NCBI GenBank assembly: GCA_902572605.1
Contig: CACGGD010000001.1
Coordinates: 159,861-223,860 of the forward strand
Length of the DNA: 64,000 bases
Direction: 5' to 3'
Origin: an uncultured Pelagibacteraceae bacterium
Lineage (GTDB): Bacteria > Pseudomonadota > Alphaproteobacteria > Pelagibacterales > Pelagibacteraceae
A program made the position numbers and the translations under genes. The notes under the pieces were generated by a model. That model was not told the DNA's origin. It saw only the letters and a program-made list of their open reading frames with translations, and did no database searches. Every line of letters begins with the position of its first letter. Within the stretch, counting starts at the first letter, position 1. Below, one piece after another: positions 46,205 through 61,512 of this stretch.

Positions 46205-46699
46205 ATGAGTTGGACTAACGAGAAAGTTGAAAAATTAAAAGAACTTTGGTCGAAAGGACATACGGCTAGTCAAATAGCTGAAATGCTAGGTGACACAACG
46301 CGTAACGCAGTTATTGGTAAAGCTCATAGATTAAACTTGGAAGCACGAGCCCCTTCTAAGCAATCAAACCTACCTAGATCTAGGGAAAACAAGCAAATTA
46401 TAAAGCGAAGTCCAGCGCCAATGTCTCGTAAGGCTAAATTTCAATCAATTCTGCTTGATAAGAATTTTGAAGCTGAAAATCCTAAATCTTTAGAGGAATT
46501 AACAGAAGAAACATGTAAATGGCCCATAGGTCATCCTAATGAAGAAAAATTTTACTTTTGTGGAAGAAAGCCTGAAAACGATTTTCCATATTGTAAACTG
46601 CATATTTTATATGCCTTCCAGCCTAAAAATCAAAAAGAGGATGATCTGGGTGATGAAATTCCAGAATTCATTGAAAAGAAAATAAAATCAGCAGGCTAG
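46205..46699 (+). CDS. gcrA: Cell-cycle regulator GcrA
   Basis: Alphaproteobacterial transcription regulator that works with sigma-70 RNA polymerase and recognises CcrM-methylated GANTC sites. The 164-residue protein has the N-terminal helix-turn-helix MSWTNEKVEKLKELWSKGHT and AEMLGDTTRNAVIGKAHRLNL, a basic linker, and the C-terminal TCKWPIGHPNEEKFYFCGRK...YCKLH block. It ends QKEDDLGDEIPEFIEKKIKSAG. The same C-terminal tail occurs again as an orphan fragment at 49857-49925. Its stop is 1 bp from the zur stop. Confidence 0.96.
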   Translation: MSWTNEKVEKLKELWSKGHTASQIAEMLGDTTRNAVIGKAHRLNLEARAPSKQSNLPRSRENKQIIKRSPAPMSRKAKFQSILLDKNFEAENPKSLEELTEETCKWPIGHPNEEKFYFCGRKPENDFPYCKLHILYAFQPKNQKEDDLGDEIPEFIEKKIKSAG

Positions 46700-46700
46700 A

Positions 46701-47102
46701 TTATTTGCACTTTTTGCAAAGACCGAAAAATTCTAAATTAAATCTTTTAAACTTCATTCCTTTTTTATGATTAAAACTTGATAAATATTTTGAGAGTTTA
46801 ACATCACTAATTTCATCAACCATCTCACAACTTTCACAAATTGAAAACGCTGTAGCTTTTGAAATTTCACAATCAGAATTTTTACATGCAACAAAAGCAT
46901 TTTTACTTTCAATTTTATGAATTTTTCCTATCTCAACTAATTTATCTAATGCTCGATAAACTTGTGGTGGAGCATTAATGCCTTTCTTTTGAACATTATA
47001 AAGTATCGTATATGCTTTTAAGGGCTCTGGAGATTTATCAATTAAATCAAAAATTATTTGCTGATTTTTGGAAAGATTGTTTTCTTTATGCATTCTAGTC
47101 AT
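46701..47102 (-). CDS. zur: Fur-family zinc uptake regulator
   Basis: A 133-residue Fur-family repressor. The N-terminal winged helix includes PPQVYRALDKLVEIGKIHKIES, and the C-terminal part has the structural cysteines in CKNSDCE, FSICESCEMVDE and LCKKCK. Its place after znuB, and the Zur-like operators at 48689-48721, identify it as Zur rather than Fur. A second in-frame ATG at 47093 is an alternative start. It is the last gene of znuC-znuB-zur and its stop nearly touches that of gcrA. Confidence 0.9.
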   Translation of the reverse strand: MTRMHKENNLSKNQQIIFDLIDKSPEPLKAYTILYNVQKKGINAPPQVYRALDKLVEIGKIHKIESKNAFVACKNSDCEISKATAFSICESCEMVDEISDVKLSKYLSSFNHKKGMKFKRFNLEFFGLCKKCK

Positions 47103-47117
47103 TGTACTGATTCTTCA

Positions 47118-47921
47118 TTAATTTTTCAATTTAATCGATTGTTTAATTTTTACTAATGAAAGTATGAATAAAAACAAGGAAGCCGCAATGATTGATGGGC
47201 CTGAAGATGTATTAAACTGTAACGAAGTAAACAAACCCAAAATTACAGACAACAAACCTCCAAGTACTGAATAAATCACCATACTCTGAGGGCTTGAAGA
47301 AATATTTCGTGCCATTGCAGCTGGTATGATTAACATTCCTGTAATTAATAATAGTCCAACCATTTTAATTGAAATAGCAATTATCCCAGCCATTAAAATA
47401 GTAAATATAGCTTTAGCTCTATCAGGATTTAAACCTTCGGCTTCTGCTAATTCGTAGTTTACTGTTGATGCAAACAAAGGTTTCCAAATCAATTTAAGAA
47501 TTAAAAGTATTAATGGCCCCCCTATCCATATAATTAATAAATCATCAGCTGTAACTGCTAATATATCCCCAAATAATAATCCCATGATATCGAACCTTAT
47601 GAATGTTAAAAAACCAATTACAACCAGTCCAACTGCTAAAGATGAATGAGCCAAGAGTCCTAATAAAGCATCACCTGGTAGATTGGTTCTTTTTTGAAGC
47701 TGTATCAAAATTAATGCAATTAAAGATGAAATTATGAATACTGAAAGAGCAATGTTAAATTCCAAAGTATAAGCTAGTGTAACTCCAAGTAAAGCAGAGT
47801 GGGCAAGAGTATCACCAAAATATGATAATCGCCTCCATATAACAAAACATCCTAGAGGCCCAGTTACAAATGCAATACCAAGTCCAGCAACTAACGCTCT
47901 TATAAAAAAATCATCAAACAT
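47118..47921 (-). CDS. znuB: Zinc ABC transporter permease
   Basis: A 267-residue permease of the ABC-3 family with about eight helices. GPLGCFVIWRRLSYFGDTLAHSALLG near the N-terminus and the EAA-like EAEGLNPDRAKAIF segment, followed by LLLITGMLIIPAAMAR, are characteristic. It moves Zn(II) delivered by ZnuA across the inner membrane. It follows znuC without a gap and is 15 bp before zur. Zinc rather than manganese is inferred from the Zur gene and the His-rich ZnuA. Confidence 0.93.
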   Translation of the reverse strand: MFDDFFIRALVAGLGIAFVTGPLGCFVIWRRLSYFGDTLAHSALLGVTLAYTLEFNIALSVFIISSLIALILIQLQKRTNLPGDALLGLLAHSSLAVGLVVIGFLTFIRFDIMGLLFGDILAVTADDLLIIWIGGPLILLILKLIWKPLFASTVNYELAEAEGLNPDRAKAIFTILMAGIIAISIKMVGLLLITGMLIIPAAMARNISSSPQSMVIYSVLGGLLSVILGLFTSLQFNTSSGPSIIAASLFLFILSLVKIKQSIKLKN

Positions 47922-48668
47922 TTAATTTTTTTTTATTTCACCTTCATTTGTATGAATATGATCATGACTATGTTTGTATCTTGTAAGTATTTGAGAGGCT
48001 TGTTCTCCAAATAAAGCTTTATATTCATTATTTTTTGCAACATCTAAAGGAGAGCCTGAACAACAGACATGACCGTTTAGACAAACAACATGGTCAGTAG
48101 CACTCATTACGGTATGTAAGTCGTGAGAAATCAATAGGATTCCACAATTCAATTCATCTGAAATTTTCTTTATAAGTTCGTATAGAGCAATTTCGCCAGT
48201 AAAATCCACCCCTTGTACTGGTTCATCAAGTACTAAAAGATCTGGTTTTTTTGAGATAGCTCTTGCAAGCAATACTCTTTGAAATTCACCGCCTGATAAG
48301 TCGCCCAAATTTTTATCTTTAAGATGAATAACACCTGTTAAAGATAAAGCTTCTTTAATAGCTTCATCTTTGAGATTTTCAGTTAGTACCATGAAATCAT
48401 TCACTCTAAGTGGCAATGTCCAATCAATTGAGATTTTTTGAGGAACATATCCAACTTTATTCGTATATTTCTCAACTTCTCCATCGATTTTTTTATAAAT
48501 TCCTAAAGCAATTTTAGCTGTGGTGCTTTTTCCAGAACCATTAGGACCAATAAGAGTAACTATTTTACCCTTTTCAATTTGTAATGACACTCCTTTAACG
48601 AGCCATTTGCCGTTTATACGAAAACCGGCTTGTTTTAATTTTACTAAAATATTTTGATTTAAGCTCAT
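47922..48668 (-). CDS. znuC: Zinc ABC transporter ATPase
   Basis: A 248-residue ATPase with Walker A GPNGSGKST (near residue 41), the signature LSGGEFQRV, Walker B LLVLDEPVQGVD and the H-loop ISHDLHTVM. The HVVCLNGHVCCSG segment after the H-loop is typical of ZnuC. It ends in a His-containing tail (KHSHDHIHTNEGE) that may bind metal. It starts 72 bp from the divergent znuA start; that gap holds two Zur-like boxes. Confidence 0.93.
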   Translation of the reverse strand: MSLNQNILVKLKQAGFRINGKWLVKGVSLQIEKGKIVTLIGPNGSGKSTTAKIALGIYKKIDGEVEKYTNKVGYVPQKISIDWTLPLRVNDFMVLTENLKDEAIKEALSLTGVIHLKDKNLGDLSGGEFQRVLLARAISKKPDLLVLDEPVQGVDFTGEIALYELIKKISDELNCGILLISHDLHTVMSATDHVVCLNGHVCCSGSPLDVAKNNEYKALFGEQASQILTRYKHSHDHIHTNEGEIKKN

Positions 48669-48688
48669 TTTATCTCTTGACTCTAAAA

Positions 48689-48703
48689 CGTTATATTATT
48701 ACA
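48689..48703. promoter_or_regulatory. Zur box, degenerate copy
   Basis: CGTTATATTATTACA matches the perfect box at 48707-48721 in 13 of 15 bases. Its centre is 18 bp away, so the two sites would lie on nearly the same side of the DNA helix. It is the copy nearer znuC. Confidence 0.65.
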
Positions 48704-48706
48704 TAC

Positions 48707-48721
48707 TGTTATATTATAACA
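48707..48721. promoter_or_regulatory. Zur box, perfect palindrome
   Basis: TGTTATA-T-TATAACA is a 15-bp perfect inverted repeat that matches the proteobacterial Zur core GTTATA(A/T)TATAAC. It lies between divergent znuC and znuA, about 20 bases before the znuA ATG, where bound Zur would block transcription of both. Confidence 0.85.
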
Positions 48722-48740
48722 ATTCTAACATACTATTATT

Positions 48741-49787
48741 ATGAAAAACATTAAAAAATTACCATTTATATTATCAATATTATCTCTATTTATTATTTTC
48801 TCACCAGCAAAAGCTGACATCAAAGTAGTTGCATCAATAAAACCTATACACTCATTAGCAAGTTATTTGATGGATGGGGTAGGTAAACCAGATTTAATAG
48901 TAGATGGATATGCTTCACCACACGGATTTGCAATGAAACCGTCTCACGCAAAAATGTTACAAAATGCTGATTTAATCTTTTGGGTTGGTGAAGACTTAGA
49001 AAGTTTTTTAGAAAAACCATTAAATTCAATAGCAAAAAAAGCTGAAAAAATAGAGTTAATGGAAATTAAAGGATTAAATAAATTAGAATTTAGAGAAAGA
49101 AACATATTTGAAGGACATGATGATCATGGACATGACGAGCATAAAAAAGAAGATGAACATAAAGAACATGGTCATAAAGAGGATAAACACGATGAACATG
49201 GTCATGACGAGCATAAAGAAGACGAACATAAAGAACATGGTCATAAAGAAGATAAACACGATGATCACCATGAGCATGCTCACGGTGAACATGATCCGCA
49301 CATCTGGTTAGATCCAATGAACGCAAAAGTGATTTTAAAAGAAATGGCAGAGCATTTAATAGAAAATGATCAAGAAAACGCATCTACATATAAAGCTAAT
49401 TTAAAAAAAGCACTCAAAGATTTAGACAAACTTACAAAAAAAGTTAAATCTGAGTTAAATAAAGATTTTAAATCGATTGTTTTCCATGACGCCTATCAAT
49501 ATTTTGAAAAAAGATTTGATGTAAATGTTTTGGGAGCTTTTACTGTAAATACAGATGTATTGCCTGGAGCTGAACAATTATCTGAAATCAGAGAAATAAT
49601 TGAACATGACAAAGTAAGTTGTGTGTTTTCTGAACCTCAATTTAATCCTGACATAATCAATGCAGTAGCGAAAGATATGAATATTAAAACTGGTGTTTTA
49701 GATCCATTGGGAGCCACTTTAACTCCAGGAAAAACTTTATATTTTGATCTAATTAGTAATATGTCTAAGTCCTTTAAAAGCTGTTAA
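48741..49787 (+). CDS. znuA: Zinc-binding protein ZnuA with a long His-rich loop
   Basis: Periplasmic solute-binding protein of the ABC zinc importer. The signal peptide (residues 1-25) ends SPAKA. Expected zinc ligands are in YASPHGFAMKPSHA, HDPHIWLDPMNA, SIVFHDAYQYF and the acidic LDPLGATLTPG; two cysteines (DKVSCVF and the last residue) match the ZnuA disulfide. Residues about 121-185 form an Asp/Glu/Lys/His loop with two 23-24 residue tandem repeats, thought to bind extra zinc. The 348-residue length is due to this loop. Confidence 0.95.
   Translation: MKNIKKLPFILSILSLFIIFSPAKADIKVVASIKPIHSLASYLMDGVGKPDLIVDGYASPHGFAMKPSHAKMLQNADLIFWVGEDLESFLEKPLNSIAKKAEKIELMEIKGLNKLEFRERNIFEGHDDHGHDEHKKEDEHKEHGHKEDKHDEHGHDEHKEDEHKEHGHKEDKHDDHHEHAHGEHDPHIWLDPMNAKVILKEMAEHLIENDQENASTYKANLKKALKDLDKLTKKVKSELNKDFKSIVFHDAYQYFEKRFDVNVLGAFTVNTDVLPGAEQLSEIREIIEHDKVSCVFSEPQFNPDIINAVAKDMNIKTGVLDPLGATLTPGKTLYFDLISNMSKSFKSC
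49131..49271 (+). repeat. Tandem repeat coding the His-rich loop of ZnuA
   Basis: Two in-frame units, 49131-49202 (72 bases, 24 codons) and 49203-49271 (69 bases, 23 codons), encode HDEHK(K)EDEHKEHGHKED followed by KHDEHG or KHDDHH. They differ by one Lys codon and a few bases, pointing to a fairly recent duplication by slippage or unequal crossover. Confidence 0.9.
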
Positions 49788-49856
49788 CTATTTCTAACCA
49801 AAGTATCTTTCTCTTCTAAATTGTAATAAATTCTTAGTAAACAATAATTATAGGAG

Positions 49857-49925
49857 AGAGACGATGATCTTGGTGATGAGATTCCAGAGTTTATCGAGAA
49901 AAAAGTTAAAGCCTCATCTGGTTAA
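49857..49925 (+). pseudogene. Orphan 3' fragment of gcrA
   Basis: The frame reads RDDDLGDEIPEFIEKKVKA, then SSG and a stop, nearly the same as the last residues of the intact GcrA (EDDLGDEIPEFIEKKIK). Over 16 aligned codons (from 49863 and 46640) 39 of 48 bases agree, and 7 of the 8 changed codons are synonymous. An in-frame TAG stands at 49851-49853, so no gene body precedes it. It marks the far edge of the zinc block and is best read as the left-over tail of a former gcrA copy. Confidence 0.85.
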
Positions 49926-49958: not shown

Positions 49959-50186
49959 ATGAAGTTTATTAAAAAATACCTTAAATGGTTAAGTACTTTT
50001 TTAGTTCTTACAGGTATTTTATTAACAAATTTGAATATGTATCCAGTAAATATAATGTTTCATGGAGCTGGAGTTGTTGGTTGGACTATTGCAGGTTTTA
50101 TTTCTAAGGATAAAGCAATATTAACTAATTTTGGGTTACAGATACCATTATTTATTATTGGTTTTTATCAAATTTTGGTTCCTTAA
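49959..50186 (+). CDS. Small membrane protein, DUF6552-like
   Basis: A 75-residue protein with three hydrophobic stretches (about residues 10-26, 32-47 and 57-74) and a short basic N-terminus. The layout KWLSTFLVLTGILLTNLNMYPVNI then GVVGWTIAGF resembles small proteins grouped as DUF6552, but I cannot confirm it. Function is unknown. It lies between the gcrA remnant and arsC, 26 bp from the latter, and may be co-transcribed with the arsC-aquaporin pair. Confidence 0.65.
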   Translation: MKFIKKYLKWLSTFLVLTGILLTNLNMYPVNIMFHGAGVVGWTIAGFISKDKAILTNFGLQIPLFIIGFYQILVP

Positions 50187-50212: not shown

Positions 50213-50656
50213 ATGAGGAAAACAAAAACAATATTGTTTGTTTGTACTGGAAACTCTGCGAGAAGCATAATAGCAGAAAGTATTGTAAATAAAAATTACC
50301 GAAATCAATTCATCGCATTTAGTGCCGGAAGTAATCCTTCAGGAAAAATCAATCCTTACATTAAAGAGTATCTTGAAGGAAAAAAATTTAATTTAGACAC
50401 TTATTATTCAAAAAATTTTGATGAATTTTTAAAAAATGATATTGATATTGATTACGTGATTACAGTTTGTAATAACGCTAATAAAGAAGTTTGTCCTGTA
50501 TGGCCCAAAAAAAAGACCATTACACACTGGGATATTGAGGACCCTGTTGAAAAATTTAAAAAAACTAAAAATAAAGATAAAATAAATTTAATAGCTGAAG
50601 AAACTTATAATATAATTAATGAAAAAATTAAAAATTGGATAAAAAATGAAAAGTAA
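50213..50656 (+). CDS. arsC: Arsenate reductase, low-molecular-weight phosphatase type
   Basis: A 147-residue protein of the LMW tyrosine phosphatase fold. The P-loop is CTGNSAR (Cys11, Arg17), and two later cysteines in VITVCNNANKEVCPVW match the redox relay of thioredoxin-coupled ArsC. HWDIEDPVE carries the general acid Asp. These features favour arsenate reduction to arsenite over protein phosphatase action. It overlaps an aquaporin gene by 11 bases and adjoins the phosphate-uptake region, fitting arsenate as an unwanted phosphate mimic. Confidence 0.88.
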   Translation: MRKTKTILFVCTGNSARSIIAESIVNKNYRNQFIAFSAGSNPSGKINPYIKEYLEGKKFNLDTYYSKNFDEFLKNDIDIDYVITVCNNANKEVCPVWPKKKTITHWDIEDPVEKFKKTKNKDKINLIAEETYNIINEKIKNWIKNEK

Positions 50657-51293
50657 AAAAATATTTATTGGTGAATTTATAGGAAGTTGTTTTTTAGTCA
50701 TGATAATTGTTGGTTCAGGTATTATGGCTCAAAATCTAACTGATGACGTCGCTGTAATGTTAATAGCGAATACTTTAGCTACAGGTGCAGGATTATTTGT
50801 TCTGATTACTTCAATCGGTGATATCTCTGGAGCACATTTCAATCCTGTCGTTACTTTAGCAATGTATTTTACCAATAAGATTAAAAAAAATTTAATTATC
50901 ATTTATATCTCAGCTCAAATCTTAGGTTGCATGTTAGGAGTAATGTTGGCTAATTTTATGTTTGATCTTCCTTTGTTACAGCTATCAGAGAAGATTAGAC
51001 CTGGAATAAATATTTTTACAGCTGAGATCATTGCAACTTTTGGATTAATTTTTGTGATATTCGGATCTTTAAAAAGTGGTAAACTTGCAGTCGCCTCATC
51101 AGTTGCTACTTTTATTACAGCAGGTTATTGGTTTACCTCTTCAACTTCATTTGCAAATCCAGCGGTAGCAATTGCAAGAACTTTTACAGACACATTTACT
51201 GGAATAAATTACTTAAATACTCCTAGTTATATCATTGCTGAAATTATTGGTGGAATATTAGCTGTCTATTTAATTAGAAAAATTTTTTTATAG
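50646..51293 (+). CDS. MIP-family channel (aquaporin / aquaglyceroporin)
   Basis: A 215-residue channel with six membrane helices and two half-helices. The first pore box is GAHFNPVVTLAMYF, with NPV instead of the usual NPA, and the second is SFANPAVAIARTFTDTF. Coupling to arsC by an 11-base overlap suggests a role in letting arsenite out, as for the rhizobial AqpS in ars operons; water or glycerol transport is the alternative. No ArsR or ArsB gene is present. Confidence 0.88.
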   Translation: MKSKKIFIGEFIGSCFLVMIIVGSGIMAQNLTDDVAVMLIANTLATGAGLFVLITSIGDISGAHFNPVVTLAMYFTNKIKKNLIIIYISAQILGCMLGVMLANFMFDLPLLQLSEKIRPGINIFTAEIIATFGLIFVIFGSLKSGKLAVASSVATFITAGYWFTSSTSFANPAVAIARTFTDTFTGINYLNTPSYIIAEIIGGILAVYLIRKIFL

Positions 51294-51302
51294 TTGGAGG
51301 GC

Positions 51303-51331
51303 AGCCCAAGGTAATATTAATACCTTGGGCT
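51303..51331. terminator. Strong hairpin downstream of the aquaporin gene
   Basis: AGCCCAAGGTA-ATATTAA-TACCTTGGGCT is a perfect 11-bp stem, starting 10 bases after the aquaporin stop. It lacks a following T tract on either strand, so it may act as a 3'-end stabiliser or a weak terminator for both convergent transcripts rather than a classical one. Confidence 0.6.
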
Positions 51332-51345
51332 AATTAATTAACAAA

Positions 51346-51359
51346 CAGTCGGGAGACTG
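51346..51359. other. Second small hairpin in the arsC-aquaporin/ppx spacer
   Basis: CAGTC-GGGA-GACTG forms a 5-bp stem with a GNRA-type GGGA tetraloop on the plus strand, 15 bases after the larger hairpin. The remaining spacer to 51424 is A-rich with no ORF. The two stems together could be a structured 3' UTR or a small RNA. Confidence 0.45.
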
Positions 51360-51424
51360 ATGAACATTTAATAATATAAAAATGCTAAAAAAATATTTAA
51401 ATTAAGTTAAAGATTTATTAATTT

Positions 51425-52930
51425 TCAAGAATAAATGATATTAGAGTCGACATTCATCTCTCCTGCTAGATTTTTAAGTCTTTTAGTTACTTGTTTTGAG
51501 ACTATATCACTATGATTTTTAGGTATTTTCAAAAAAATAGTCTTATTTCTTTTATAAATTTTAAATTCATCTAACAACAACGAAGACATGCTTGTAAGTG
51601 ACTCTGCTAACCTTAAAGCAGATCCCACTTGCTTTGAGGATAAAATCTCCTTGTTATTTAGTAAGGTTAGAAACTGATAATTCGGATTATATTTTAAACC
51701 ACAATGTCTCCAAAAACTTGCTGATGCAACTTTTACTCTATCTCTATGTTCTAGTTTTAGTAATGGAGTATTTAACACTTCCATAAAAACTAACTCTGCT
51801 TTTTGAAAAGCTCCTAGGCCCCAATCCATTTTACTTAAGATACAAGCCAAGGTTAGTAATCTTCGATTAAAATATTCGTTGTCTTCAAATAATGGTGAAA
51901 TAAAATTAAAATATTTCTCAAAACTCTTTCCATAGTCCCCTTTTTTAAAAGATATACCATCAGTTTTTAATTTGAAAATTTCATCCTCACTCATTCCTTG
52001 GTTTATAATTGTATTCATATGCCCCTCTCTTAGTCCACTGATTGAGCAAATAACTTTTGAGGGGCTTGCTACTTCAATTATTTCGTTAAGTATTATAGAG
52101 CTAAAAGGTAAATAGGGAGTTCTAGATTTAGTAATATATTCCATTGATTTCAAAGATGATTTATTAAATTTTGAAATTCTGTTTAAGTATTTAACTGCTG
52201 CATCTTTTGAGAGCTTATATTGATGCAAAATATGTAATGGGTGTTTTTCTTTAAAGAGATGATATTTAAATAATGATCTCCAAGTCCCTCCTACCAAATA
52301 TATATTTTTAAATTTCTTTTTAGAAAGCCATTTTTCATCTCTTAAACATTTTCTAACATATTTTCCCAAATTTCTTTTTTTTATAATAGGATTATTTTCA
52401 AGTCTTAATACTCCAAGAGGTAAAGAGGTTGTTTCAAAAATTTGATTGTTAGAAACTCTGGCAAGTTCTAAACTTCCACCTCCTAAATCTGCAACAAGTC
52501 CATCTACTTCATCAAATCCTACCATTACACCGTTTGCTGATGTTCTTGCTTCTTCCTCGCCAGATAACACTAGTGGTTTTTTATTAAATATTTTTTCAAT
52601 TTCTCTTAAAAATTCACTTGCATCAGTGGCCTCTCTAAAAGCTGCTGTAGCAATAATTTCTAAATCTTGAACGTCTGAAATATCTAAAATTTCTTTAAAT
52701 CTATTTAGAACTTTTAAAGAACTTTTAATTCCATCAGGATTTAGTTTTTTAGATTTATCTAGATTTTTTCCAAGTTTGCAAACTGCTTTTTCATTAAAAA
52801 CTGGAATTGGAGAAATTTTAAAATTATCGTATATGAGCATTCTTATTGAATTTGATCCAAGATCTATTATGGCTTGCTTAGACTTTTTATTAGACTGAAA
52901 TTTAAAAAGATTTTTTAATTCTGGTTTCAT
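51425..52930 (-). CDS. ppx: Exopolyphosphatase, Ppx/GppA family
   Basis: Releases phosphate from polyphosphate ends. The 501-residue protein has the actin-like ATPase phosphate loops AIIDLGSNSIRMLIYD and VADLGGGSLELARV, the GEEEARTSANGVM block and a C-terminal HD-like helical part. The GppA activity on pppGpp cannot be excluded. It overlaps the ppk1 stop by 4 bases, so synthesis and breakdown of polyphosphate are encoded together at the edge of the phosphate island. Confidence 0.94.
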   Translation of the reverse strand: MKPELKNLFKFQSNKKSKQAIIDLGSNSIRMLIYDNFKISPIPVFNEKAVCKLGKNLDKSKKLNPDGIKSSLKVLNRFKEILDISDVQDLEIIATAAFREATDASEFLREIEKIFNKKPLVLSGEEEARTSANGVMVGFDEVDGLVADLGGGSLELARVSNNQIFETTSLPLGVLRLENNPIIKKRNLGKYVRKCLRDEKWLSKKKFKNIYLVGGTWRSLFKYHLFKEKHPLHILHQYKLSKDAAVKYLNRISKFNKSSLKSMEYITKSRTPYLPFSSIILNEIIEVASPSKVICSISGLREGHMNTIINQGMSEDEIFKLKTDGISFKKGDYGKSFEKYFNFISPLFEDNEYFNRRLLTLACILSKMDWGLGAFQKAELVFMEVLNTPLLKLEHRDRVKVASASFWRHCGLKYNPNYQFLTLLNNKEILSSKQVGSALRLAESLTSMSSLLLDEFKIYKRNKTIFLKIPKNHSDIVSKQVTKRLKNLAGEMNVDSNIIYS

Positions 52931-55053
52931 TTTACCAATCTTAAATTTTGAGGTTTAGCTCTTAAAATTGACTTACCACGACCTGATAAACTTGGGTTCT
53001 TCATGAAATAGGAATGTGCGGAAAAGCCTTTTTCTTGTTCTTTATTATAGTTTCCTAAGCTATCTAAATACCATGTTTCTGATTTATCTTTAAAGTTGGC
53101 TAACATAATTTGATCTAAAATTTGCTCATGCACAGTATTGTTTTCTATCGGAATTATAATTTCAATTCTTCTATCTAAATTTCTAGGCATTAAATCTGCT
53201 GATGAAATATATACCTGATTCTCTCGAGAAGGCATAGAATTACCATTTGCAAAACAATAAATTCTTGAGTGTTCTAAAAATCTGCCAATAAGGCTTTTTA
53301 CTTTTATATTTTCAGATTGACCTTTAACTCCAGGTCTTAAGCAGCATACGCCTCGTACTGATAAGTTTATTTTTACTCCTGCGTTTGAAGCTTCATAAAA
53401 TTTCTTAATAATTCCAGGGTCTACAAGAGAATTCATTTTTGCCCATATTTCTGCAGGTTTTCCTTTACTTGCATTTACAATTTCATTTTCAATTTTTTCT
53501 TCAAAAAAATTCCTACTATTTAATGGAGACATAAAAATTTTATTCAATTTTTTGGGTTTTGCATAACCAGTTACATAATTGAAAAATTTTTCAACATCTT
53601 TGGCCAAGTCTTGATTAGAGCTAAACAGTGATAAGTCAGTATAAATTTTTGCGTTAATTGGATGATAGTTTCCTGTGCCTAAGTGAACATAGCTTAGCGT
53701 TTTTGCTCCTTCTTTTCTTAAAACTAAACTTGCTTTTGCATGCGTTTTGTATTTTGCGAATCCGTAAACAATTTGAACGCCAGCTTTCTCTAGTTTCCTA
53801 GATAATTCAATATTAGCTTCCTCATCAAATCGAGCTTTTATTTCTATTACGGCTGTAACAACTTTTCCGTTTTCTGCTGCTCTACTTAGTGCTTTTACGA
53901 TAGGAGAGTCAGGTGTGGTTCGATACAAAGTTTGTTTGATACCGATAACTTTGGGATCTTTTGCTGCAGCTTCTAAAAATTGAATTACTACATCAAAAGT
54001 TTCAAAAGGGTGGTGTACAACAAAATCTTTACTTCTTATAGCTGAAAAAAATTTATCATCAAATTCCTTCAATCTTTCAACTTCTCTAGGATTAAACTTT
54101 TTAAATCTCAGCTTTGGATCTTTCTTTTTACAAATTTCATCTATATCTTGTATTCCAACCAATCCTTCAACCTCATAAATATGATCTTCGTCCATTTTAA
54201 ATTTTTTTGAAATAAAATTTAAAAGGTTTTTATTTGAATTAGTGAGTACTTCAAGTTTAACTACGTTTCCCCTTCTTCTTTTCTTAATTGCTTTTTCAAA
54301 ATATCTCACAAGATCAGCAGCTTCATCATCTATTTCAATTTCGCTGTCTCTAATTATTTTAAACTGCAAACTTGCCTCGATATTATGGTCTGGAAATATT
54401 TCATTTGCAAATTTACAAATTACGTCATCAATTGTGACAAATTCATTTATTGTTTCAGAATTTTTTAGAGATATAAATTTTGGAAGTGCTCTTGGTATAA
54501 CTATAATTGCGTTTAGTTCTCTTTTTTTTTTAATTCTGCTCATTCTTAATAAGATTGCTTGGCCTTTATTTGGTATAAAAGGAAAGGGATGTGATGGATC
54601 GATGGCAGTAGGTGTTATTATAGGATAAATTGTTTCCTGAAAATATTCTCTTAGATACATAAGATCCTTCTTATTTAGTTCTGACATTTTTCGAATGAAA
54701 ATTTTTTCTTTTGATAGCTCTTTTTTCAACTCTAGGAACGCTTCGTTTTGCTTCTTTAATAGATCTTTAGTTTTTAATACGACCCTGTTTAATTGATCCT
54801 CTGCAGTTAATCCATCTGCGCTTAATTCGTCAAAACCATCTTTAATTTGATTAAAAAGTCCAGCGACTCTTACCATAAAAAATTCATCTAAATTTGTACC
54901 TGCGATTGATAAAAATTTTACTCTTTCAAATAGAGGATTTGTTTTATCTTTTGACTCTTCTAAAACACGATCATTAAACTGAAGCCAAGATAATTCTCTG
55001 TTTATGAGTTGATTGCTAATATTAACGTTTTCTGAAAATGATGCTTTCGACAT
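52927..55053 (-). CDS. ppk1: Polyphosphate kinase 1
   Basis: Makes polyphosphate from ATP. At 708 residues it is full length. The N domain has NRELSWLQFNDRVLEE, the middle has IFPDHNIEASLQFKI, and the catalytic phospholipase-D-like domains have the autophosphorylated His region YKTHAKASLVLR and GTGNYHPINAKIYTDL, then the second His block YCFANGNSMPSRENQVYISSADLMPRN-type (seen as ISSADLMPRNLDRR). It is upstream of ppx and diverges from sixA with 22 bp between starts. Confidence 0.97.
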   Translation of the reverse strand: MSKASFSENVNISNQLINRELSWLQFNDRVLEESKDKTNPLFERVKFLSIAGTNLDEFFMVRVAGLFNQIKDGFDELSADGLTAEDQLNRVVLKTKDLLKKQNEAFLELKKELSKEKIFIRKMSELNKKDLMYLREYFQETIYPIITPTAIDPSHPFPFIPNKGQAILLRMSRIKKKRELNAIIVIPRALPKFISLKNSETINEFVTIDDVICKFANEIFPDHNIEASLQFKIIRDSEIEIDDEAADLVRYFEKAIKKRRRGNVVKLEVLTNSNKNLLNFISKKFKMDEDHIYEVEGLVGIQDIDEICKKKDPKLRFKKFNPREVERLKEFDDKFFSAIRSKDFVVHHPFETFDVVIQFLEAAAKDPKVIGIKQTLYRTTPDSPIVKALSRAAENGKVVTAVIEIKARFDEEANIELSRKLEKAGVQIVYGFAKYKTHAKASLVLRKEGAKTLSYVHLGTGNYHPINAKIYTDLSLFSSNQDLAKDVEKFFNYVTGYAKPKKLNKIFMSPLNSRNFFEEKIENEIVNASKGKPAEIWAKMNSLVDPGIIKKFYEASNAGVKINLSVRGVCCLRPGVKGQSENIKVKSLIGRFLEHSRIYCFANGNSMPSRENQVYISSADLMPRNLDRRIEIIIPIENNTVHEQILDQIMLANFKDKSETWYLDSLGNYNKEQEKGFSAHSYFMKNPSLSGRGKSILRAKPQNLRLVK

Positions 55054-55075
55054 ATATAAATGTTAAATTAAAAAT

Positions 55076-55600
55076 ATGTTTAAATTATATGCGATGAGAC
55101 ACGCTAAATCTAGTTGGGATTTTCCAGATTTAGATGATCATGACAGGCCATTGAATAAAAGAGGGGTAAATTCAGCAAAATTAATTTGTGAATTTTTTAT
55201 TAAAAAGAAATTAAAATTTGATTTAGTTTATTGCTCGTCCTCTAAAAGGACAATACAAACATTAAATATATTGTCAGAAAAAATCAGTTTTAAGAAAATT
55301 ATTAAAAAAAAAGCGCTTTATCATGCTAGTGAGGATGAAATTATTCATATCTTAAAACAAACAGTTGATAATTATAAAACTTTACTTTTAATCAATCATG
55401 AACCTTCAATTAGTGAACTCATAAATCGAATCTGTCTTAAAGAAAACTCTGATCAATTTGAAAATTTAAAAAGAAAATTTCCTACTGCAGCCGTTGCTGA
55501 AGTAAGTTTTAATTTCAATGATTGGAAGAAGTTATCAAAAGTTAAAGGAAAATTAATATCATTTATAAAGCCAAAAGATCTTCAAGAATCTAAGGAATAG
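55076..55600 (+). CDS. SixA-like histidine phosphatase
   Basis: A 174-residue member of the histidine phosphatase branch 1. The catalytic RHA motif is AMRHAKSSWDFPDLDDHDRPLNKRG-like (seen as YAMRHAKSSW, then RPLNKRG), and the second His lies in LLINHEPSISEL. SixA removes phosphate from His-phosphotransfer proteins in E. coli; here, next to phoB, a role on phosphorelay components is tempting but unproven. Its last 19 bases overlap the phoB 3' end. Confidence 0.88.
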   Translation: MFKLYAMRHAKSSWDFPDLDDHDRPLNKRGVNSAKLICEFFIKKKLKFDLVYCSSSKRTIQTLNILSEKISFKKIIKKKALYHASEDEIIHILKQTVDNYKTLLLINHEPSISELINRICLKENSDQFENLKRKFPTAAVAEVSFNFNDWKKLSKVKGKLISFIKPKDLQESKE

Positions 55601-56265
55601 CCAGCAGATCTTACTGTTCTGATAAGATCTTTCTTGCCATCAATATTTATTGCTTTTCTTAGTCTTCTTATATGAACATCTATAGTTCTGGACTCCACAT
55701 AAATATCATCTCCCCATACAGAATTTAGAAGTTGCTCACGCGAATATACTCTTTTTGGATTCTTTATTAAAAAATCAATTAGTTTAAATTCTGTAGGACC
55801 AACTATAACTTCTTTATCTGCTCTATAAACTCTTCGTTGAACTCTATCTACTTTTAGATCCTCAAATACTACAACATCAGCGGCAACACTTGGTTTAGAT
55901 CTCTTTAATAAAGCGTTAACTCTTGCAATAAGTTCTTTTTGGCTGAATGGCTTAGTTACGTAGTCATCAGCTCCTGTTTCAAATCCTTTCAGTTTGTCTT
56001 CCTCTTCACCTTTGGCTGTTAACATAATGATTGGGATATTTTTGTGAAGATTGCTTCTTTTCAAATTTTTACAGACTTCAACACCTGAGATATCTGGCAA
56101 CATCCAATCTAATAAAATTAAATCAGGATTTTTTTCCTTTATATTTCTAATAGCGTCTTCTCCATTGACTGCATAATCAACTTTGTGACCCTCTTTTTCT
56201 AAATTGTATTTAAGCAAAGTTACGATGGGCATTTCATCTTCAACTATGAATAAATTTGCCCTCAT
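55582..56265 (-). CDS. phoB: Phosphate regulon response regulator
   Basis: OmpR/PhoB-family regulator of 227 residues. The receiver domain has the acidic pocket VEDE, phospho-acceptor Asp53 in LLDWMLPD, the Thr in MLTAKGEE and the Lys in DYVTKPFS. The C-terminal winged helix has VGPTEFKLIDFLI and VDVHIRRLRKAI-like IDVHIRRLRKAI. It is the last gene of the pst-phoU operon and overlaps phoU by one base; the partner kinase PhoR is encoded at 62188-63387. It should bind the Pho-box repeat before pstS. Confidence 0.97.
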   Translation of the reverse strand: MRANLFIVEDEMPIVTLLKYNLEKEGHKVDYAVNGEDAIRNIKEKNPDLILLDWMLPDISGVEVCKNLKRSNLHKNIPIIMLTAKGEEEDKLKGFETGADDYVTKPFSQKELIARVNALLKRSKPSVAADVVVFEDLKVDRVQRRVYRADKEVIVGPTEFKLIDFLIKNPKRVYSREQLLNSVWGDDIYVESRTIDVHIRRLRKAINIDGKKDLIRTVRSAGYSLDS

Positions 56266-56945
56266 TATCCTTTTGGTCGGTCTCCCTCTAAATAATCTCC
56301 TGTAATCAGAAAATAAACTTGCTCTGCAATATTGGTTGCATGATCTCCAATCCTCTCAATATTTTTAAGCATGAAAAGTAGTTGGGTTACTTTTTGTATA
56401 TCGTTTTTATTTTTTTCTAAATGCTTTATTGCAGCTTCCATATTAGCATTAGTAATTTGATCTATTTCTTCATCAGAATTCCAAACATTTTCTGCTGTAT
56501 CTTTAGCTCTATGTAAATACGAATTTAAAACTGCATTGACTTGTTTTGATGCTTTTAAACCAGCTATTTCGAAATTTTTAGTTATATCATTAGGTAAATC
56601 AGTTCCAATTATAGTTAATCGTTTTGAGATATTTTTTGCTAAATCACCAATTCTCTCTAAGTCTGAAGAAACTTTTAAAGCAACAACTGTCTCTCTTAAA
56701 TCAATTGCCATAGGTTGCCTTAAGGCAATCAAATTTACAACTTGCTCTTCTATATTTAATTCATACTTATCGATTAATTCGTCATCTTTAATAGATTTTT
56801 CTGCTAAGCTAATATCTTTTTTAACTAAAGATTGAATGGAGTTTTCTAGCTGTTTCTCAACACCCGCTCCCATTTTCGCTATTGTATCTTTTAACAACTG
56901 AAGTTGCTCTTCGTAAGATTTTACTATGTGCGGTTTTTCACTCAT
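56265..56945 (-). CDS. phoU: Phosphate transport regulator PhoU
   Basis: Helical-bundle protein that links the Pst transporter to PhoR and keeps the regulon off when phosphate is ample. The 226-residue protein has the two repeated PhoU three-helix bundles with the metal-site motifs DLERIGDLAKNI and NIERIGDHATNIAEQ. It lies between pstB and phoB with one-base overlaps on both sides. Assignment is firm. Confidence 0.97.
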   Translation of the reverse strand: MSEKPHIVKSYEEQLQLLKDTIAKMGAGVEKQLENSIQSLVKKDISLAEKSIKDDELIDKYELNIEEQVVNLIALRQPMAIDLRETVVALKVSSDLERIGDLAKNISKRLTIIGTDLPNDITKNFEIAGLKASKQVNAVLNSYLHRAKDTAENVWNSDEEIDQITNANMEAAIKHLEKNKNDIQKVTQLLFMLKNIERIGDHATNIAEQVYFLITGDYLEGDRPKG

Positions 56946-57700
56946 TAACCAAACCTCCCTGTAATGTAATCCTGAGTTTGTTGTTTGTCAGGATTTTTAA
57001 ATATTTTATCTGTTGATCCAAATTCTATAAGTTTTCCCAAATGAAAGAAACCCGTTTTTTGAGATACCCTAGCTGCTTGTGACATTGAGTGGGTAACTAT
57101 TACAATTGTGACCTCTTTTTTAAGATCATCAATAAGTTCTTCAATTTGAGCTGTTGCTATTGGGTCAAGCGCTGAACATGGTTCGTCCATAAGAATCACT
57201 TCTGGGCTTACAGATATAGCTCTTGCAATACATAGTCGTTGCTGTTGACCGCCTGATAAACCAGTTCCGATTTCATCAAGTCTATCTTTAACTTCGTTCC
57301 ACAGGGCAGCTTTTTTCAAACTTGTTTCAACTATTTGATCCATTTCTTCTTTGCTCTGTGCAATACCGTGAATAGTAGGCCCATAAGCTACATTTTCATA
57401 AATTGTTTTAGGGAACGGATTGGGTTTTTGAAAAACCATACCAACGTTTTCCCTAAGTCTCACAACATCTAATTTTCTTGAGTTCAGTTCTAGGTTGTCC
57501 ATTTTAATACTGCCTTCAACTCTACAAATATCTATAACATCGTTCATTCTGTTCAAGCATCTTAAGAAAGTAGACTTTCCACACCCAGATGGCCCAATTA
57601 AAGCTGTAACTTCTTTTTCTGCTATATCTATAGAGACATCAAATAATGCCTGTTTAGATCCGTAATATACATTTACATTTTCCGCTTTTATTTTACTCAT
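56945..57700 (-). CDS. pstB: Phosphate ABC transporter ATPase
   Basis: ATPase of the high-affinity phosphate importer. The 251-residue protein has Walker [13 protein letters not shown], the PstB-specific [21 protein letters not shown], the signature [14 protein letters not shown], Walker [16 protein letters not shown] and the H-loop [12 protein letters not shown]. It lies directly after pstA and overlaps phoU by one base. Very well conserved. Confidence 0.98.
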
Positions 57701-58972
57701 TTAACTCCATTTCTTTTCAAATTTGTGTCTAACTATTTGAGCTGCCAAGTTCATTAAAATTAAAAAAGCTAGAAGCACCATAATACATGCGGATACTTTT
57801 TCAACAAAACCTCTCTCAGCACTTTCTGACCATATATATATCTGTACTGGTAAACTTGCAGCAGGATCAACTGGCGTGCCAGGAATTGTATTCACGAAAG
57901 CAACCATTCCAATTAAAATTAAAGGAGCTGTTTCTCCTAAAGCTTGAGCTAAGCCAATTATCGTTCCAGATAAAGTTCCAGGCATTGATAGTGGCACAGT
58001 ATGATGCATGGTCGTTTGCATATTGCTTGCACCCATCGCTAAAGCAGCTTCTCTTATACTTGGAGGAACAGCTTTTAAAGAGGCTCTTGCAGCAATAATT
58101 ATTGTTGGTAATGTCATAAGTGACAGAGTAATTCCTCCAACAAGTGGTGTCGATCTTGGTAAATTAAAAACTGCTAATAAAATACCGAGACCTAGCAAAC
58201 CAAATACTATAGATGGAACGGCTGCTAAATTGTTAATGTTTACTTCTATAAAATCTGTAAATTTATTTTTTGGTGCAAATTCCTCGAGATAAATTGCAGC
58301 TAGCACTGCAACAGGAAATGAAAATGCTAAACACACTAATATACTAAAAACTGTTCCCATAAACGAGCTAGCTATACCTGCTAGTTCTGCCTCTCTTGAG
58401 TCAGGATTTGTAAAAAAACTAATGTTAAACTCTGATAAAATATCTCCTCTCTCATTAAGCATATCGTAAATCTGCAGCTGATAATCATTTACTCTTCTAT
58501 TCTTTTCAGGGATATCTCTTGGATAATTTCCCTTATGAACTTGATCAATATCATCAGAAGCTGTTAATTTTATGGGCACTATTTTACCTAGATAGTCTGG
58601 ATTTTTTAAAAGTAGATCTTTAACCTCTGCCTCATATTTATACGAAACCATTTGTATCAATTGACGATCCTCTTCTTCAGGAAGTCCAGGATCTAATGAG
58701 GTCATAGCTTTGTAAGCAACATCATAGTAGTCTGCATTTTCTAAATCATCTTTTGATGGACTTTCTGCATCGATTAAAAGTAATTCTTTATCATAATGAA
58801 CTTCTGTTACTATCCAAGTTTTTTGGAAAGCTGAGTAACCTTTTGAAAATATCTGAAACATAAAAACTGCTAAAAAGCTTAAAGCTAATCCTATAGCTAT
58901 TTTGCCATACCATTGAAATCTTCTTTCAGCGTTATATCTTTTTTTTAATAAATTTTTCTTAAAACTATTCAT
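57701..58972 (-). CDS. pstA: Phosphate ABC transporter permease PstA
   Basis: Second permease of the phosphate importer. The N-terminal half holds one helix (about residues 26-46) and a long periplasmic region, as in other alphaproteobacterial PstA proteins; the C-terminal half has five helices with the EAA loop region ALAMGASNMQTTMHHTVPLSMPG (seen as REAALAMGASNMQ). I prefer ATG 58972 (MNSFKKN), giving 423 residues and an 8-bp overlap with pstC; the frame opens at 58996, which would overlap by 32 bp. Confidence 0.95.
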   Translation of the reverse strand: MNSFKKNLLKKRYNAERRFQWYGKIAIGLALSFLAVFMFQIFSKGYSAFQKTWIVTEVHYDKELLLIDAESPSKDDLENADYYDVAYKAMTSLDPGLPEEEDRQLIQMVSYKYEAEVKDLLLKNPDYLGKIVPIKLTASDDIDQVHKGNYPRDIPEKNRRVNDYQLQIYDMLNERGDILSEFNISFFTNPDSREAELAGIASSFMGTVFSILVCLAFSFPVAVLAAIYLEEFAPKNKFTDFIEVNINNLAAVPSIVFGLLGLGILLAVFNLPRSTPLVGGITLSLMTLPTIIIAARASLKAVPPSIREAALAMGASNMQTTMHHTVPLSMPGTLSGTIIGLAQALGETAPLILIGMVAFVNTIPGTPVDPAASLPVQIYIWSESAERGFVEKVSACIMVLLAFLILMNLAAQIVRHKFEKKWS

Positions 58973-60341
58973 ATTTTTCCCTATATTTTTTAACAACTGA
59001 AAGAGCGATTACATTTAAGAGTAAAGTTACTATAAATAAAGATATTCCTAATGCAAAAGCTGATTGAGTTTTTGGATCTCCAAATTGTTGATCTCCAATT
59101 AAAATTACTACAATTTGCGCTGTAATGGTTGAAGTTGATTCAAGGGGATTCATTGTAAGATTAGCCGCTAGTCCTGAGGCCATTACAACAATCATTGTTT
59201 CTCCTACCGCTCTCGATACTGCTAAAAGTATCGAACCTACGATACCAGGTAGGGCTGCTGGAAAAATTACTTTTTTTACAGTTTCAGATTTTGTTGCGCC
59301 CATTGCGTAACTCCCATCTCTTAAATTTTGAGGTACTGCCGTCATAACGTCATCGCTTAGACTTGAAATAAAAGGAATTATCATTACTCCCATAACTGCT
59401 CCTGCAGCTAAAGCGCTCTCCGCTGAAACTTCTAAACCCATAGCGTTACCAATTTCTTTAACAAAAGGACCGACGGTTAAAGCTGCAAAAAAACCATATA
59501 CCACTGTTGGAATACCAGCTAAAATCTCAATAATAGGTTTCGCATATTTTCTTACGCCTCTTCCAGCATACTCAGATAGATATATCCCACTCAGCAAACC
59601 TATGGGGATGGCAACACACATTGCAATAAAAGCAATAAAAAAAGTTCCAGCAAATAAAGGCACAGCTCCGAAAGCATCCTTCATTAATTCAGGATCTGGT
59701 TGGCCATCTCTTACAAAAGTTTTAGCAGGATACCAATGAGTTCCGAATATAAAGTCAAAGATTTTTACTGCTTGAAAAAACCTAATCGCTTCGAATAAAA
59801 GTGAAAAAACTATTCCGATTGTAACTAAAACTGCGCCTAATGATGCAACAAATAACACCCATTTAAGAAAAATTTCTACTGGTTCTCTCATTCGATCATT
59901 TTTCTGAACAGATCTATACGCAAAACTCAGAGAGAAAATTAAAATTGCTAAAATAATTGCTACTTTAGCGCTGTTAGCTATTCCTTTTAATTGAATGTAC
60001 TTATTAGCAGACTCATCTAGAAAATTAGTAATATTTCCCGTGTAAGTTCCTGCGGCTAATGCTTTAACCTTTGTGTAAATAAGCTGAAGCTCATTTTTAG
60101 TTAAGTTCTGATCAGTGTAATCTTGTAAAATAAATGTTTTAACTATTGATGGTTCAAAAACTGACCAAAGAGCAAAAATTATTAATGCTGGTGCAGCACA
60201 CCAAGCAGCTAAATAATATCCATAAAATTTTGGTAATGCCGTAAGTCTTTGTGATGATTGAATAACTAGAGCTTTTTTTCTACCGAAATAATAACTTGTG
60301 AAAGCTAAGAGAATAATAAAAGTTACAAGTATTAAATTCAT
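58965..60341 (-). CDS. pstC: Phosphate ABC transporter permease PstC
   Basis: First permease of the phosphate importer, 458 residues. Extra N-terminal helices and a periplasmic stretch precede the core permease domain with GLLSGIYLSEYAGRGVRKY, EILAGIPTVVYGFFA and the EAA loop RDGSYAMGATKSETVKKV. The length is typical for alphaproteobacteria, longer than the about 320 residues of E. coli. It follows pstS after a 59-bp gap that contains a terminator-like hairpin. Confidence 0.96.
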   Translation of the reverse strand: MNLILVTFIILLAFTSYYFGRKKALVIQSSQRLTALPKFYGYYLAAWCAAPALIIFALWSVFEPSIVKTFILQDYTDQNLTKNELQLIYTKVKALAAGTYTGNITNFLDESANKYIQLKGIANSAKVAIILAILIFSLSFAYRSVQKNDRMREPVEIFLKWVLFVASLGAVLVTIGIVFSLLFEAIRFFQAVKIFDFIFGTHWYPAKTFVRDGQPDPELMKDAFGAVPLFAGTFFIAFIAMCVAIPIGLLSGIYLSEYAGRGVRKYAKPIIEILAGIPTVVYGFFAALTVGPFVKEIGNAMGLEVSAESALAAGAVMGVMIIPFISSLSDDVMTAVPQNLRDGSYAMGATKSETVKKVIFPAALPGIVGSILLAVSRAVGETMIVVMASGLAANLTMNPLESTSTITAQIVVILIGDQQFGDPKTQSAFALGISLFIVTLLLNVIALSVVKKYREKYE

Positions 60342-60358
60342 AATGAGCTTCCAGGGAT

Positions 60359-60385
60359 AAAAAGGGGGTAAAATACCCCCTTTTT
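60359..60385 (-). terminator. Terminator/attenuator between pstS and pstC
   Basis: GGGGGTA (60364-60370), loop AAA, TACCCCC (60374-60380), flanked by A5 and T5, so that a U tract follows on both strands. It sits 16 bases after the pstS stop, inside the pst operon. Partial termination here would make far more PstS than permease mRNA, matching the need for excess binding protein. Confidence 0.85.
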
Positions 60386-60400
60386 GTTTAATTGATACTA

Positions 60401-61405
60401 CTACTTCTTAGCAGGCATGTTAACTAACTTCGTAGCGTTAGTTCTAGATGTTTTGTATAACTTGCCATCTAGAGGTACTAGCCCGATATCAGTTAAGTAA
60501 CCTTTTTTACCCATAGCTTTTTTACTTGTGAACTCTTTTACAAATTCATGTAAGCCAGGTACAACGCCCACGTGAGCTTTTTTCACGTAGAAGAATAAAG
60601 GTCTTGCAACTGCGTAACTGTAATCTTGAATCGAAGATAGACTTGGTTGACCACCTTCAATGCTTGCAGCTTGCAATTTATCTTTTGCAGCTAAGAAATA
60701 ACTGAAACCAAAGAAACCGAACATTTCTTTGTCCGCAGTTAATTTTTGAATAATAAGTGAATCGTTTTCACCTACCTCAATTACCGCACCATCTTCTCTT
60801 AACGCTTTATATTTAGCGCCAGCTTTTTTAGAAGCATCATCGATACCTTTTTTCATTACTAATGAATTCCAAGCATCTCTTGTTCCTGATGTTCCTGGAG
60901 GTACCATAACTTTGATAGGGTAGTTTGGTAATGATGGGTCGATATCACTCCAATTTTTATATGGATTTGGTACTAACGCACCATCTTTAGCAACTTCTTT
61001 TGCTAATGCTGCCCATAATTGTTTTTTTGTAAAGTTTACTGGTTTAGCATCTTTAGAATAAGCTAACGTTATTCCGTCGTTACCAACTGTAATCTCTACG
61101 ATTTCTTCAACACCATTTTTTTGACATAGCGCATACTCTTTAGCCTTCATAGCTCTAGATGCATTTGTTATGTCTGGGTGCTCTGTACCAACTCCAGCAC
61201 AGAATAATTTAGCTCCACCACCTGTTCCTGTTGACTCGATTACTGGTGTTTTAAATTTACCAGACGAACCAAATCTTTCAGCAACGATTGTTGCATAAGG
61301 GAATACAGTTGAAGAACCTACGATTTTAATCTGATCTCTAGCTTGAGCAGAAGTTACAACTAACATTGCAACTAATGAAGCTAAAGCGATTGATAGTTTT
61401 CTCAT
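60401..61405 (-). CDS. pstS: Phosphate-binding protein PstS
   Basis: Periplasmic phosphate-binding protein of the high-affinity importer. The signal peptide is residues 1-22 (LVAMLVVTSAQA). The mature protein opens IKIVGSSTVFPYATIVAERF, and further phosphate-site blocks are ESTGTGGGAKLFC and PPGTSGTRDAWNS. It has two cysteines in the first domain. An AAGGAT ribosome site lies 9 bases before the ATG and a three-unit Pho-box-like repeat lies 69-97 bases upstream. Codon use and GC are slightly higher than neighbours, fitting high expression. Confidence 0.97.
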   Translation of the reverse strand: MRKLSIALASLVAMLVVTSAQARDQIKIVGSSTVFPYATIVAERFGSSGKFKTPVIESTGTGGGAKLFCAGVGTEHPDITNASRAMKAKEYALCQKNGVEEIVEITVGNDGITLAYSKDAKPVNFTKKQLWAALAKEVAKDGALVPNPYKNWSDIDPSLPNYPIKVMVPPGTSGTRDAWNSLVMKKGIDDASKKAGAKYKALREDGAVIEVGENDSLIIQKLTADKEMFGFFGFSYFLAAKDKLQAASIEGGQPSLSSIQDYSYAVARPLFFYVKKAHVGVVPGLHEFVKEFTSKKAMGKKGYLTDIGLVPLDGKLYKTSRTNATKLVNMPAKK

Positions 61406-61473
61406 TGTTTATCCTTTCATTTATTAATTAATTAACAAACATTGGACTCATAGAATTTAAAGGACTCTTAAAT

Positions 61474-61502
61474 ATTACAGATGTGTTACAAATTTGTTAA
61501 AA
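61474..61502 (-). promoter_or_regulatory. Pho box (three 11-bp repeat units) upstream of pstS
   Basis: On the minus strand TTTTAAC-AAAT-TTGTAAC-ACAT-CTGTAAT gives three 7-base units, each 11 bases apart, close to the PhoB half-site CTGTAAC/CTGTCAT with 4-base AT-rich spacers. The unit nearest pstS is the best match. This is the expected geometry for two PhoB dimers side by side. Confidence 0.8.
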
Positions 61503-61512
61503 TGATAACTTT

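Follow-up and report, generated by a model that had tools for sequence, protein, structure and literature searches.

Organisation of the gcrA locus

The window analysed here is a 64,000-nucleotide stretch of contig CACGGD010000001.1 from an uncultured bacterium of the Pelagibacteraceae (SAR11), and all positions below refer to it unless another locus is named. It contains an intact gcrA gene, followed by a zinc-uptake block of four genes and by a fragment that repeats the end of gcrA without the body of the gene; this orphan tail is followed in turn by a small gene, here called g49959, and by a phosphate island. Judged by its sequence, the orphan tail is a recombination scar at which DNA of different lineages was joined. 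The features are as follows.

46205..46699, plus strand: intact gcrA, 164 aa (Pfam GcrA, E 3.2e-40); end type Z, the last ~8 codons being of the kind found beside zinc cassettes
46701..47102, minus strand: zur, Fur family, convergent with gcrA (Pfam FUR)
47118..47921, minus strand: znuB, permease (Pfam ABC-3)
47922..48668, minus strand: znuC, ATPase (Pfam ABC_tran)
48707..48721, strand-neutral: palindrome TGTTATATTATAACA between znuC and znuA, probable Zur operator (pattern match)
48741..49787, plus strand: znuA, His-rich zinc-binding protein (Pfam ZnuA)
49788..49859, plus strand: region downstream of znuA, ending in AGGAGAGA
49859..49860: illegitimate junction with a 1-nt overlap of the two parents (parent alignments)
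49859..49925, plus strand: orphan gcrA tail (scar), from a foreign gcrA of which it holds the final 21 codons and the stop
49959..50186, plus strand: g49959, DUF6552 small protein, to the right of the docking site (Pfam DUF6552)
50213..63387: phosphate island (Pfam)

As the first-pass annotation of the window had noted, the C-terminal codons of gcrA occur twice with zur-znuB-znuC-znuA between them, and its counts were reproduced: over 16 codons the orphan tail and the intact tail (46637-46699) share 39/48 bases and 15/16 residues, and seven of the eight changed codons are synonymous. The orphan tail reads DDLGDEIPEFIEKKVKASSG* in translation (49863 to 49925), and its likeness to real gcrA ends starts at 49859. 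Elsewhere in the window the best ungapped 48-base match to the tail reaches 28/48 on either strand. The orphan tail is 64/66 identical to the gcrA ends of two relatives, L116 and L120, versus 74% to the window's intact tail, which bears out the annotation's view that it is not a decayed local duplication and that different lineages were joined here.

The junction could be placed to the base. The region downstream of znuA (49788-49859) is identical at 70 of 72 positions to L098, a zinc genome without the scar, and the AGGAGAGA at its end is likely the Shine-Dalgarno site of g49959 in scar-free zinc genomes. From 49859 to 49990 the window matches L116 at 128 of 132 positions; in L116 an intact gcrA end runs straight into g49959, with a phosphate island and no zinc block. 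The parents overlap by a single nucleotide at 49859, and directly after the overlap both have a GATG in register. Codons 145-152 in the scar are of the type of the L116/G029 clade, whereas the intact gcrA keeps the type of the window's own clade there. The stretch is a mosaic whose breakpoint and both parental junction types are seen directly in the alignments, as is the association between gcrA end and cassette described below.

The annotation had also placed operators in the zinc block, and one exact palindrome (48707-48721) fits an operator. It is the sole exact match in the window to the pattern TGTTATANTATAACA, which we take to be the Zur consensus, and no match was obtained in 100 shuffles. 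An open reading frame (ORF) of 30 codons at 49864-49956, with AGGAGAGA as its Shine-Dalgarno site, stops 2 nt before g49959 and might couple the translation of that gene. A functional leader is not claimed: the same frame is also open in the intact gcrA of L116 (read by eye), so that its openness says little.

The locus in related genomes

The comparison covered 93 gcrA loci of SAR11 relatives (Pelagibacteraceae). These were the window, 12 additional genomes and 80 relatives taken as the best of 156 confirmed loci, most of the 80 being apparently single-cell genomes. Thirteen loci carry the zinc block, six of them together with the phosphate island; 46 have the island without zinc, and in 34 neither was seen, L091 and L153 among these ending too soon for the island to be scored. 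The zinc block lies between gcrA and g49959 in all 13 zinc loci, and g49959 stands to the right of gcrA in 91 of the 93 loci, the others being L092 and L153, which ends within gcrA. Across the 93 loci, alternative gene contents are found between conserved flanks. Zinc-free strains have gcrA directly before g49959 and a gcrA tail closer to the orphan copy (96-97% over 142 bases in seven genomes), as the annotation had predicted of them.

In five zinc loci 82-84 bases separate znuA from g49959, with a Shine-Dalgarno-like site after znuA and then the ATG of g49959; the distance is 173-174 bases in the four scar carriers and 2.2-2.4 kb in the remaining four. Between the two genes, 65-66 of the 66 tail bases are present in the carriers, versus at most 32/66 in the other nine zinc loci. 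The carriers are the window, L095 (=G014), L097 and L107, the latter three matching 65, 65 and 66 of the 66 tail bases. Allowing up to two mismatches, the scar was found in four of 169 genomes of the genus (G000, G014, G082 and G088); the stretches of G082 and G088 are identical to L107 and L097, which leaves four known carriers in all. An assembly artefact of a single genome is ruled out by the presence of the same junction in three other genomes. The scar occurs only alongside the island, in four of the six zinc loci with it and in none of the seven without it. In the genomes of these seven island-free loci, which are probably incomplete, ppx-ppk was not found elsewhere, and only fragments of 26-46 bases were detected.

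Other arrangements were seen at the same site. L090 (znuA at 13580, g49959 at 15935), L103, L162 and L101 hold the extra 2.2-2.4 kb between znuA and g49959, and a third module can stack there. L098 has a divergent zinc cassette (10500-13542; ~72-73% to that of the window) between the same anchors and with a near-identical region downstream of znuA; from this locus, alleles of the zinc cassette seem to be swapped between fixed ends. In L095 and L097 the znuA match spans 975 versus 1044 bases, a length difference which we suspect to lie within the His-rich stretch. In L092 (=G005) g49959, the zinc block and the phosphate island were not found in the 10 kb to the right of gcrA, and the docking site has another occupant.

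The gcrA end follows the downstream cassette

A zinc-type gcrA end was found in 12 of the 13 zinc loci (the exception being L162), an island-type end in 42 of the 46 island loci without zinc (exceptions L154, L163, L169 and G007) and another end in all 33 readable loci in which neither cassette was seen. The type of the end follows the cassette and not the body of gcrA.

A check that makes no use of these classes was based on 2,646 locus pairs whose upstream identity lies at 70-85%. Compared with pairs whose cassettes differ, those sharing a cassette are more alike chiefly in alignment columns 480-510 (excess +0.094, other column windows -0.034 to +0.037). The set was also thinned to one representative per cluster and cassette, giving 28 loci in 22 clusters at 86% upstream identity. 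Here columns 495-510, the last 15 bases scored, stood at 0/2000 label shuffles and columns 480-495 at 13/2000, and the only other column window below 2% was 420-435 (33/2000). At a threshold of 90%, columns 420-435 and 480-495 were also at 0/2000, like 495-510, with differences of 0.03-0.04 versus 0.097. The scoring stopped six columns before the end of the alignment. The codon alignment was made without L092 (no g49959), L153 and L165 (gcrA cut), and the tests based on the upstream argD-ABC stretch also without L156, L161 and G017 (stretch incomplete), leaving 87 of the 93 loci.

The backbone tree of these 87 loci requires at least 26 changes of state for the island and at least six for zinc. 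Among 18 independent supported pairs that differ in the island, the end type differed in the same way in 14, in the opposite way in none and not at all in four (p 1.2e-4). For zinc, four supported independent pairs were available, and their association with end type was not significant (median p 0.125). Other trees were built from 36 and 19 chosen loci, and that of the island from 48.

Because the last codons track the downstream cassette, the 3' end of gcrA appears to be a shared homologous anchor, and the annotation's idea of gcrA as an anchor of recombination holds in this form. The switch points read from the alignments lie in the gcrA end or in g49959, that is, in flanking core sequence where homologous exchange took place. 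The anchor sits in a gcrA tail that should tolerate change, since the Pfam GcrA match stops at residue 144 of the intact protein.

The phosphate island and the sequence layers

The island contains, in order, a low-molecular-weight phosphatase/arsC-like gene, an aquaglyceroporin gene, ppx, ppk, a sixA-like gene (histidine phosphatase), a phoB-like gene (response regulator), phoU, pstB, pstA, pstC, pstS, an unknown gene and a phoR-like gene (sensor kinase), the pst and pho names being drawn from Pfam and gene order. The identity profile covered 44-104 kb, including the window's own contig past 64000. From 49.86 to ~63 kb the identity to the eight island carriers compared is 91-100%, versus mostly 65-91% in the flanks (G009 was compared only up to 58 kb, the end of its contig). 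To the left of gcrA the window shows an ordinary divergence, with 79-91% identity to G014, G009 and G005 and 74-83% to the other nine genomes. Ordinary divergence resumes by ~66.5 kb, and the right-hand drop falls between 63 and 66.5 kb. The right border of the island (63476 to 66287, beyond 64000 from L170) holds three ORFs of graded identity, which by eye are glycosyltransferase-, phosphodiesterase- and kinase-like.

The window and L107 share 87.8% identity in argD-ABC, 87.1% in gcrA codons 1-140, 98.6-99.0% over the zinc genes and 99.9-100.0% over the island; the corresponding values for L095 are 86.4, 85.5, 97.4-97.8 and 98.7-99.3%. From these identities the island looks youngest, the zinc block older and the backbone oldest; of the three other scar carriers compared with the window, two show the island as the youngest layer and the third gives a partial tie. 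The zinc genes are 94-99% identical between the window and nine of the 11 other zinc loci compared (L101 was left out), whereas argD-ABC reaches only 77-93% for those nine; the zinc identity is lower in L098 (72-73%) and G020 (86-88%). Towards clade-mates of either kind, zinc-bearing or zinc-free, the intact gcrA shows the identity usual for the backbone. L093 was considered as the closest whole-genome relative of the window and dropped, its identity of 91-95% being found mainly at ~43.2-46.3 kb and L093 not being the nearest at 20-30 kb.

In agreement with the annotation, which had seen no mobile element, there is no integrase or transposase among the Pfam names of 20 genes of the region, the genes to the right of 63.4 kb being read by eye only. 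The window has one tRNA, at 34160, and the next 20 kb have none, so that the locus, like flexible islands, shows no integrase, insertion sequence or tRNA target. Among 50,697 phage records there was no match for 46205-63400 at megablast sensitivity, and in IMG/VR neither the exact scar pattern nor a close relative of znuA was found. A phage or an integron cassette as carrier was rejected on the phage records, IMG/VR and the 20 named genes; integron attachment sites were not searched.

Origin of the scar

We propose, with a probability of roughly 0.77, that the phosphate island was imported with a foreign gcrA tail as its left end and was joined illegitimately behind a resident zinc cassette. 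The recipient would have been a SAR11 cell with gcrA-zur-znuBCA followed by g49959, like today's L093, L098, L100 and L150, and the donor lineage would have had gcrA directly before g49959 and the phosphate island. In window numbering, the incoming DNA would start near codon 145 of the donor gcrA. With the recipient gcrA parted from g49959 by the zinc cassette, this left end would have had no collinear partner; it would have been joined illegitimately, with the overlap of 1 nt, at the Shine-Dalgarno site that directly precedes the resident g49959. Ordinary homologous recombination at ~63-66.4 kb presumably resolved the right end. In zinc-free recipients the same import would resolve inside the conserved gcrA end, rebuilding gcrA with a change in only the last ~8 codons. 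Clean versions of the import are found: in L094, G034 and others the join lies within the gcrA end, in L090 and G020 within g49959. Since the island looks like the youngest layer and the scar was never seen without it, the simplest order is one in which the recipient already bore zinc and the island came in, and the four carriers would go back to a single founding event.

The first-pass annotation had proposed that a foreign gcrA-zur-znuBCA segment recombined into the resident gcrA, the scar being the footprint of zinc gain. That direction is probably reversed, as the orphan tail belongs with the phosphate island on its right, and the likeness of the intact gcrA to its clade-mates stays at backbone level whether or not these have zinc. 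Moreover, nine of the 13 zinc loci have no scar although their zinc block occupies this very position, a finding which the annotation itself had named in advance as one that would refute its proposal.

Several points weigh against the import of the island as described. We infer its direction from parsimony and relative identity; the junction is symmetrical in sequence, and identity also reflects constraint. The right-hand crossover is located no closer than 63-66.5 kb, and one comparison with L097 leaves the order of ages tied (zinc 97.0-97.5%, ppx 97.6%). The zinc cassette is mobile too. The window and L093 share 93% in argD-ABC and 86% in gcrA, so the histories of gcrA and of the genes upstream differ in places, and given this an exchange that included gcrA is possible. 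In an approximately unbiased (AU) test the islands of the four scar carriers as one clade were not rejected (p-AU 0.08). The end-type classes were defined post hoc, after the sequences had been viewed, and at the 90% threshold weaker associations appear elsewhere in gcrA, with several column windows at 12-28/2000.

The best of the alternatives, an unlikely one in our judgement, keeps the annotation's order of events: an incoming gcrA-zur-znuBCA would have crossed over homologously within or ahead of gcrA and been joined illegitimately inside a resident gcrA that stood before g49959 and the island, and the resident tail would have been left behind. This gives the same sequence outcome, and it suits a zinc cassette that is itself mobile and has its left boundary at the gcrA end. 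However, it needs a resident gcrA already foreign from codon 145 and then a zinc import that restored the clade-type codons 145-152, and gcrA has no tract of the high identity seen in the zinc genes. It also leaves the nine scar-free zinc loci unexplained and sits poorly with the island as youngest layer in two of the three carrier comparisons.

Slightly less probable again is a route in two steps, in which a second whole gcrA and the island integrated homologously behind the zinc block, giving a merodiploid; g49959 and the greater part of the second gcrA would then have been lost in a deletion that ran from the Shine-Dalgarno site to codon 145. The junction would be the same, the loss of the resident g49959 would be accounted for as well, and the 1-nt overlap suits the end of a deletion. 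On the other hand, no intermediate with two gcrA genes was found, the second matches among 61 genomes being the scars of G000 and G014 only, and one step more is required. A local duplication of the gcrA 3' end in this strain with later divergence would explain two copies in one genome and can practically be dismissed, as it is contradicted by the likeness of the orphan tail to the gcrA of other clades (64/66, against 74% to its own intact tail) and by the sequence downstream of it, which continues as in those clades.

Possible re-docking of the island

The locus L094 has no zinc genes and an intact gcrA, the last 36 bases of which equal the scar tail. The tails of L094, the window and L107 share a base that is absent from the other intact gcrA ends of the 93 loci. 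The island of L094 is 100.0% identical to that of the window from g49959 to the aquaglyceroporin gene and 99.7% in ppx, and the switch of L094 from clade-type to island-type sequence falls within the length of the scar. The island tree, built from 48 loci, groups the four scar carriers with L090 and L094 in one clade, in which L097 and L095 branch first and L094 is nested among the scar carriers. Our hypothesis is that in L094 an island carrying the detached tail docked anew, this time into a plain gcrA; this is kept as a hypothesis because a separate clade of scar-carrier islands was not rejected in the AU test. Tentatively, and with more doubt than confidence, the scar may be a portable homology arm, by which an island with the detached tail passes from a zinc genome into a zinc-free one, crossing over within the 66-bp tail and rebuilding a whole gcrA there.

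Relation to known systems

The kind of event is known, from flexible islands and from scars like those of homology-facilitated illegitimate recombination (HFIR), and the case dissected here is new. At its left junction the scar works like HFIR, the DNA being joined at 49859 with a 1-nt overlap, without homology or with microhomology, and the locus shows the features of flexible islands that were tested.

For replacement flexible genomic islands of aquatic prokaryotes, an exchange by homologous recombination has been proposed (PMC4033161). As in those islands, different gene sets occupy one chromosomal position; unlike them, the present locus has one boundary that is an illegitimate junction resolved to the base, and its anchor can be confined to the final codons of a single core gene. 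A phosphate flexible genomic island at a fixed position is described for HIMB59 (PMC10734472) and a pst island for two SAR11 genomospecies (PMC7318151). These islands, like ours, hold the pst operon, phoU and phoB-phoR at a fixed position, and in HIMB59 some versions also encode polyphosphate kinase, phosphohistidine phosphatase, exopolyphosphatase and a glycerol facilitator, the versions being distributed independently of genomospecies (PMC10734472). Here, in contrast, the left anchor is the gcrA end, the site also takes the zinc cassette, and both can stack.

In Vibrio type VI secretion system arrays, an HFIR-like displacement leaves orphan 3' regions (PMC5361080). One homologous and one illegitimate end are proposed in both cases, and the 3' end of a gene remains downstream. 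In Vibrio, however, the resident remnant is pushed downstream of the new DNA, whereas here the fragment most likely came with it, and the cargo there consists of toxin-immunity pairs, here of nutrient uptake. The zinc system is the same as that of PMC4771312, where a patchy znuA with conserved synteny, accompanied by a Fur-family gene, is reported for 50% of the SAR11 genomes studied; the available part of that paper does not mention the gcrA-g49959 site or an exchange. High recombination in SAR11 (PMC7542561) is on record, as are pst genes that are core in coastal genera and present in only 55% of offshore Pelagibacteraceae genomes (PMC12636525). Searches for SAR11 with gcrA and for Pelagibacter with illegitimate recombination returned no title on this locus, which may be mentioned within a text.

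Meaning for SAR11 biology

The gcrA end looks like a docking point at which zinc- and phosphate-uptake blocks are swapped between strains. The locus shows at the level of single bases how bacteria that are very common in the ocean may acquire and exchange uptake systems for zinc and phosphate without the help of mobile elements. The crossover zone is the short end of a core regulator gene, outside the conserved domain, and each cassette brings its own version of it, so that the gcrA end could be a cheap marker of the cassette carried by a SAR11 cell. Trees of islands from such loci should not serve as species trees, and rare illegitimate scars like this one give a time order for stacked islands.

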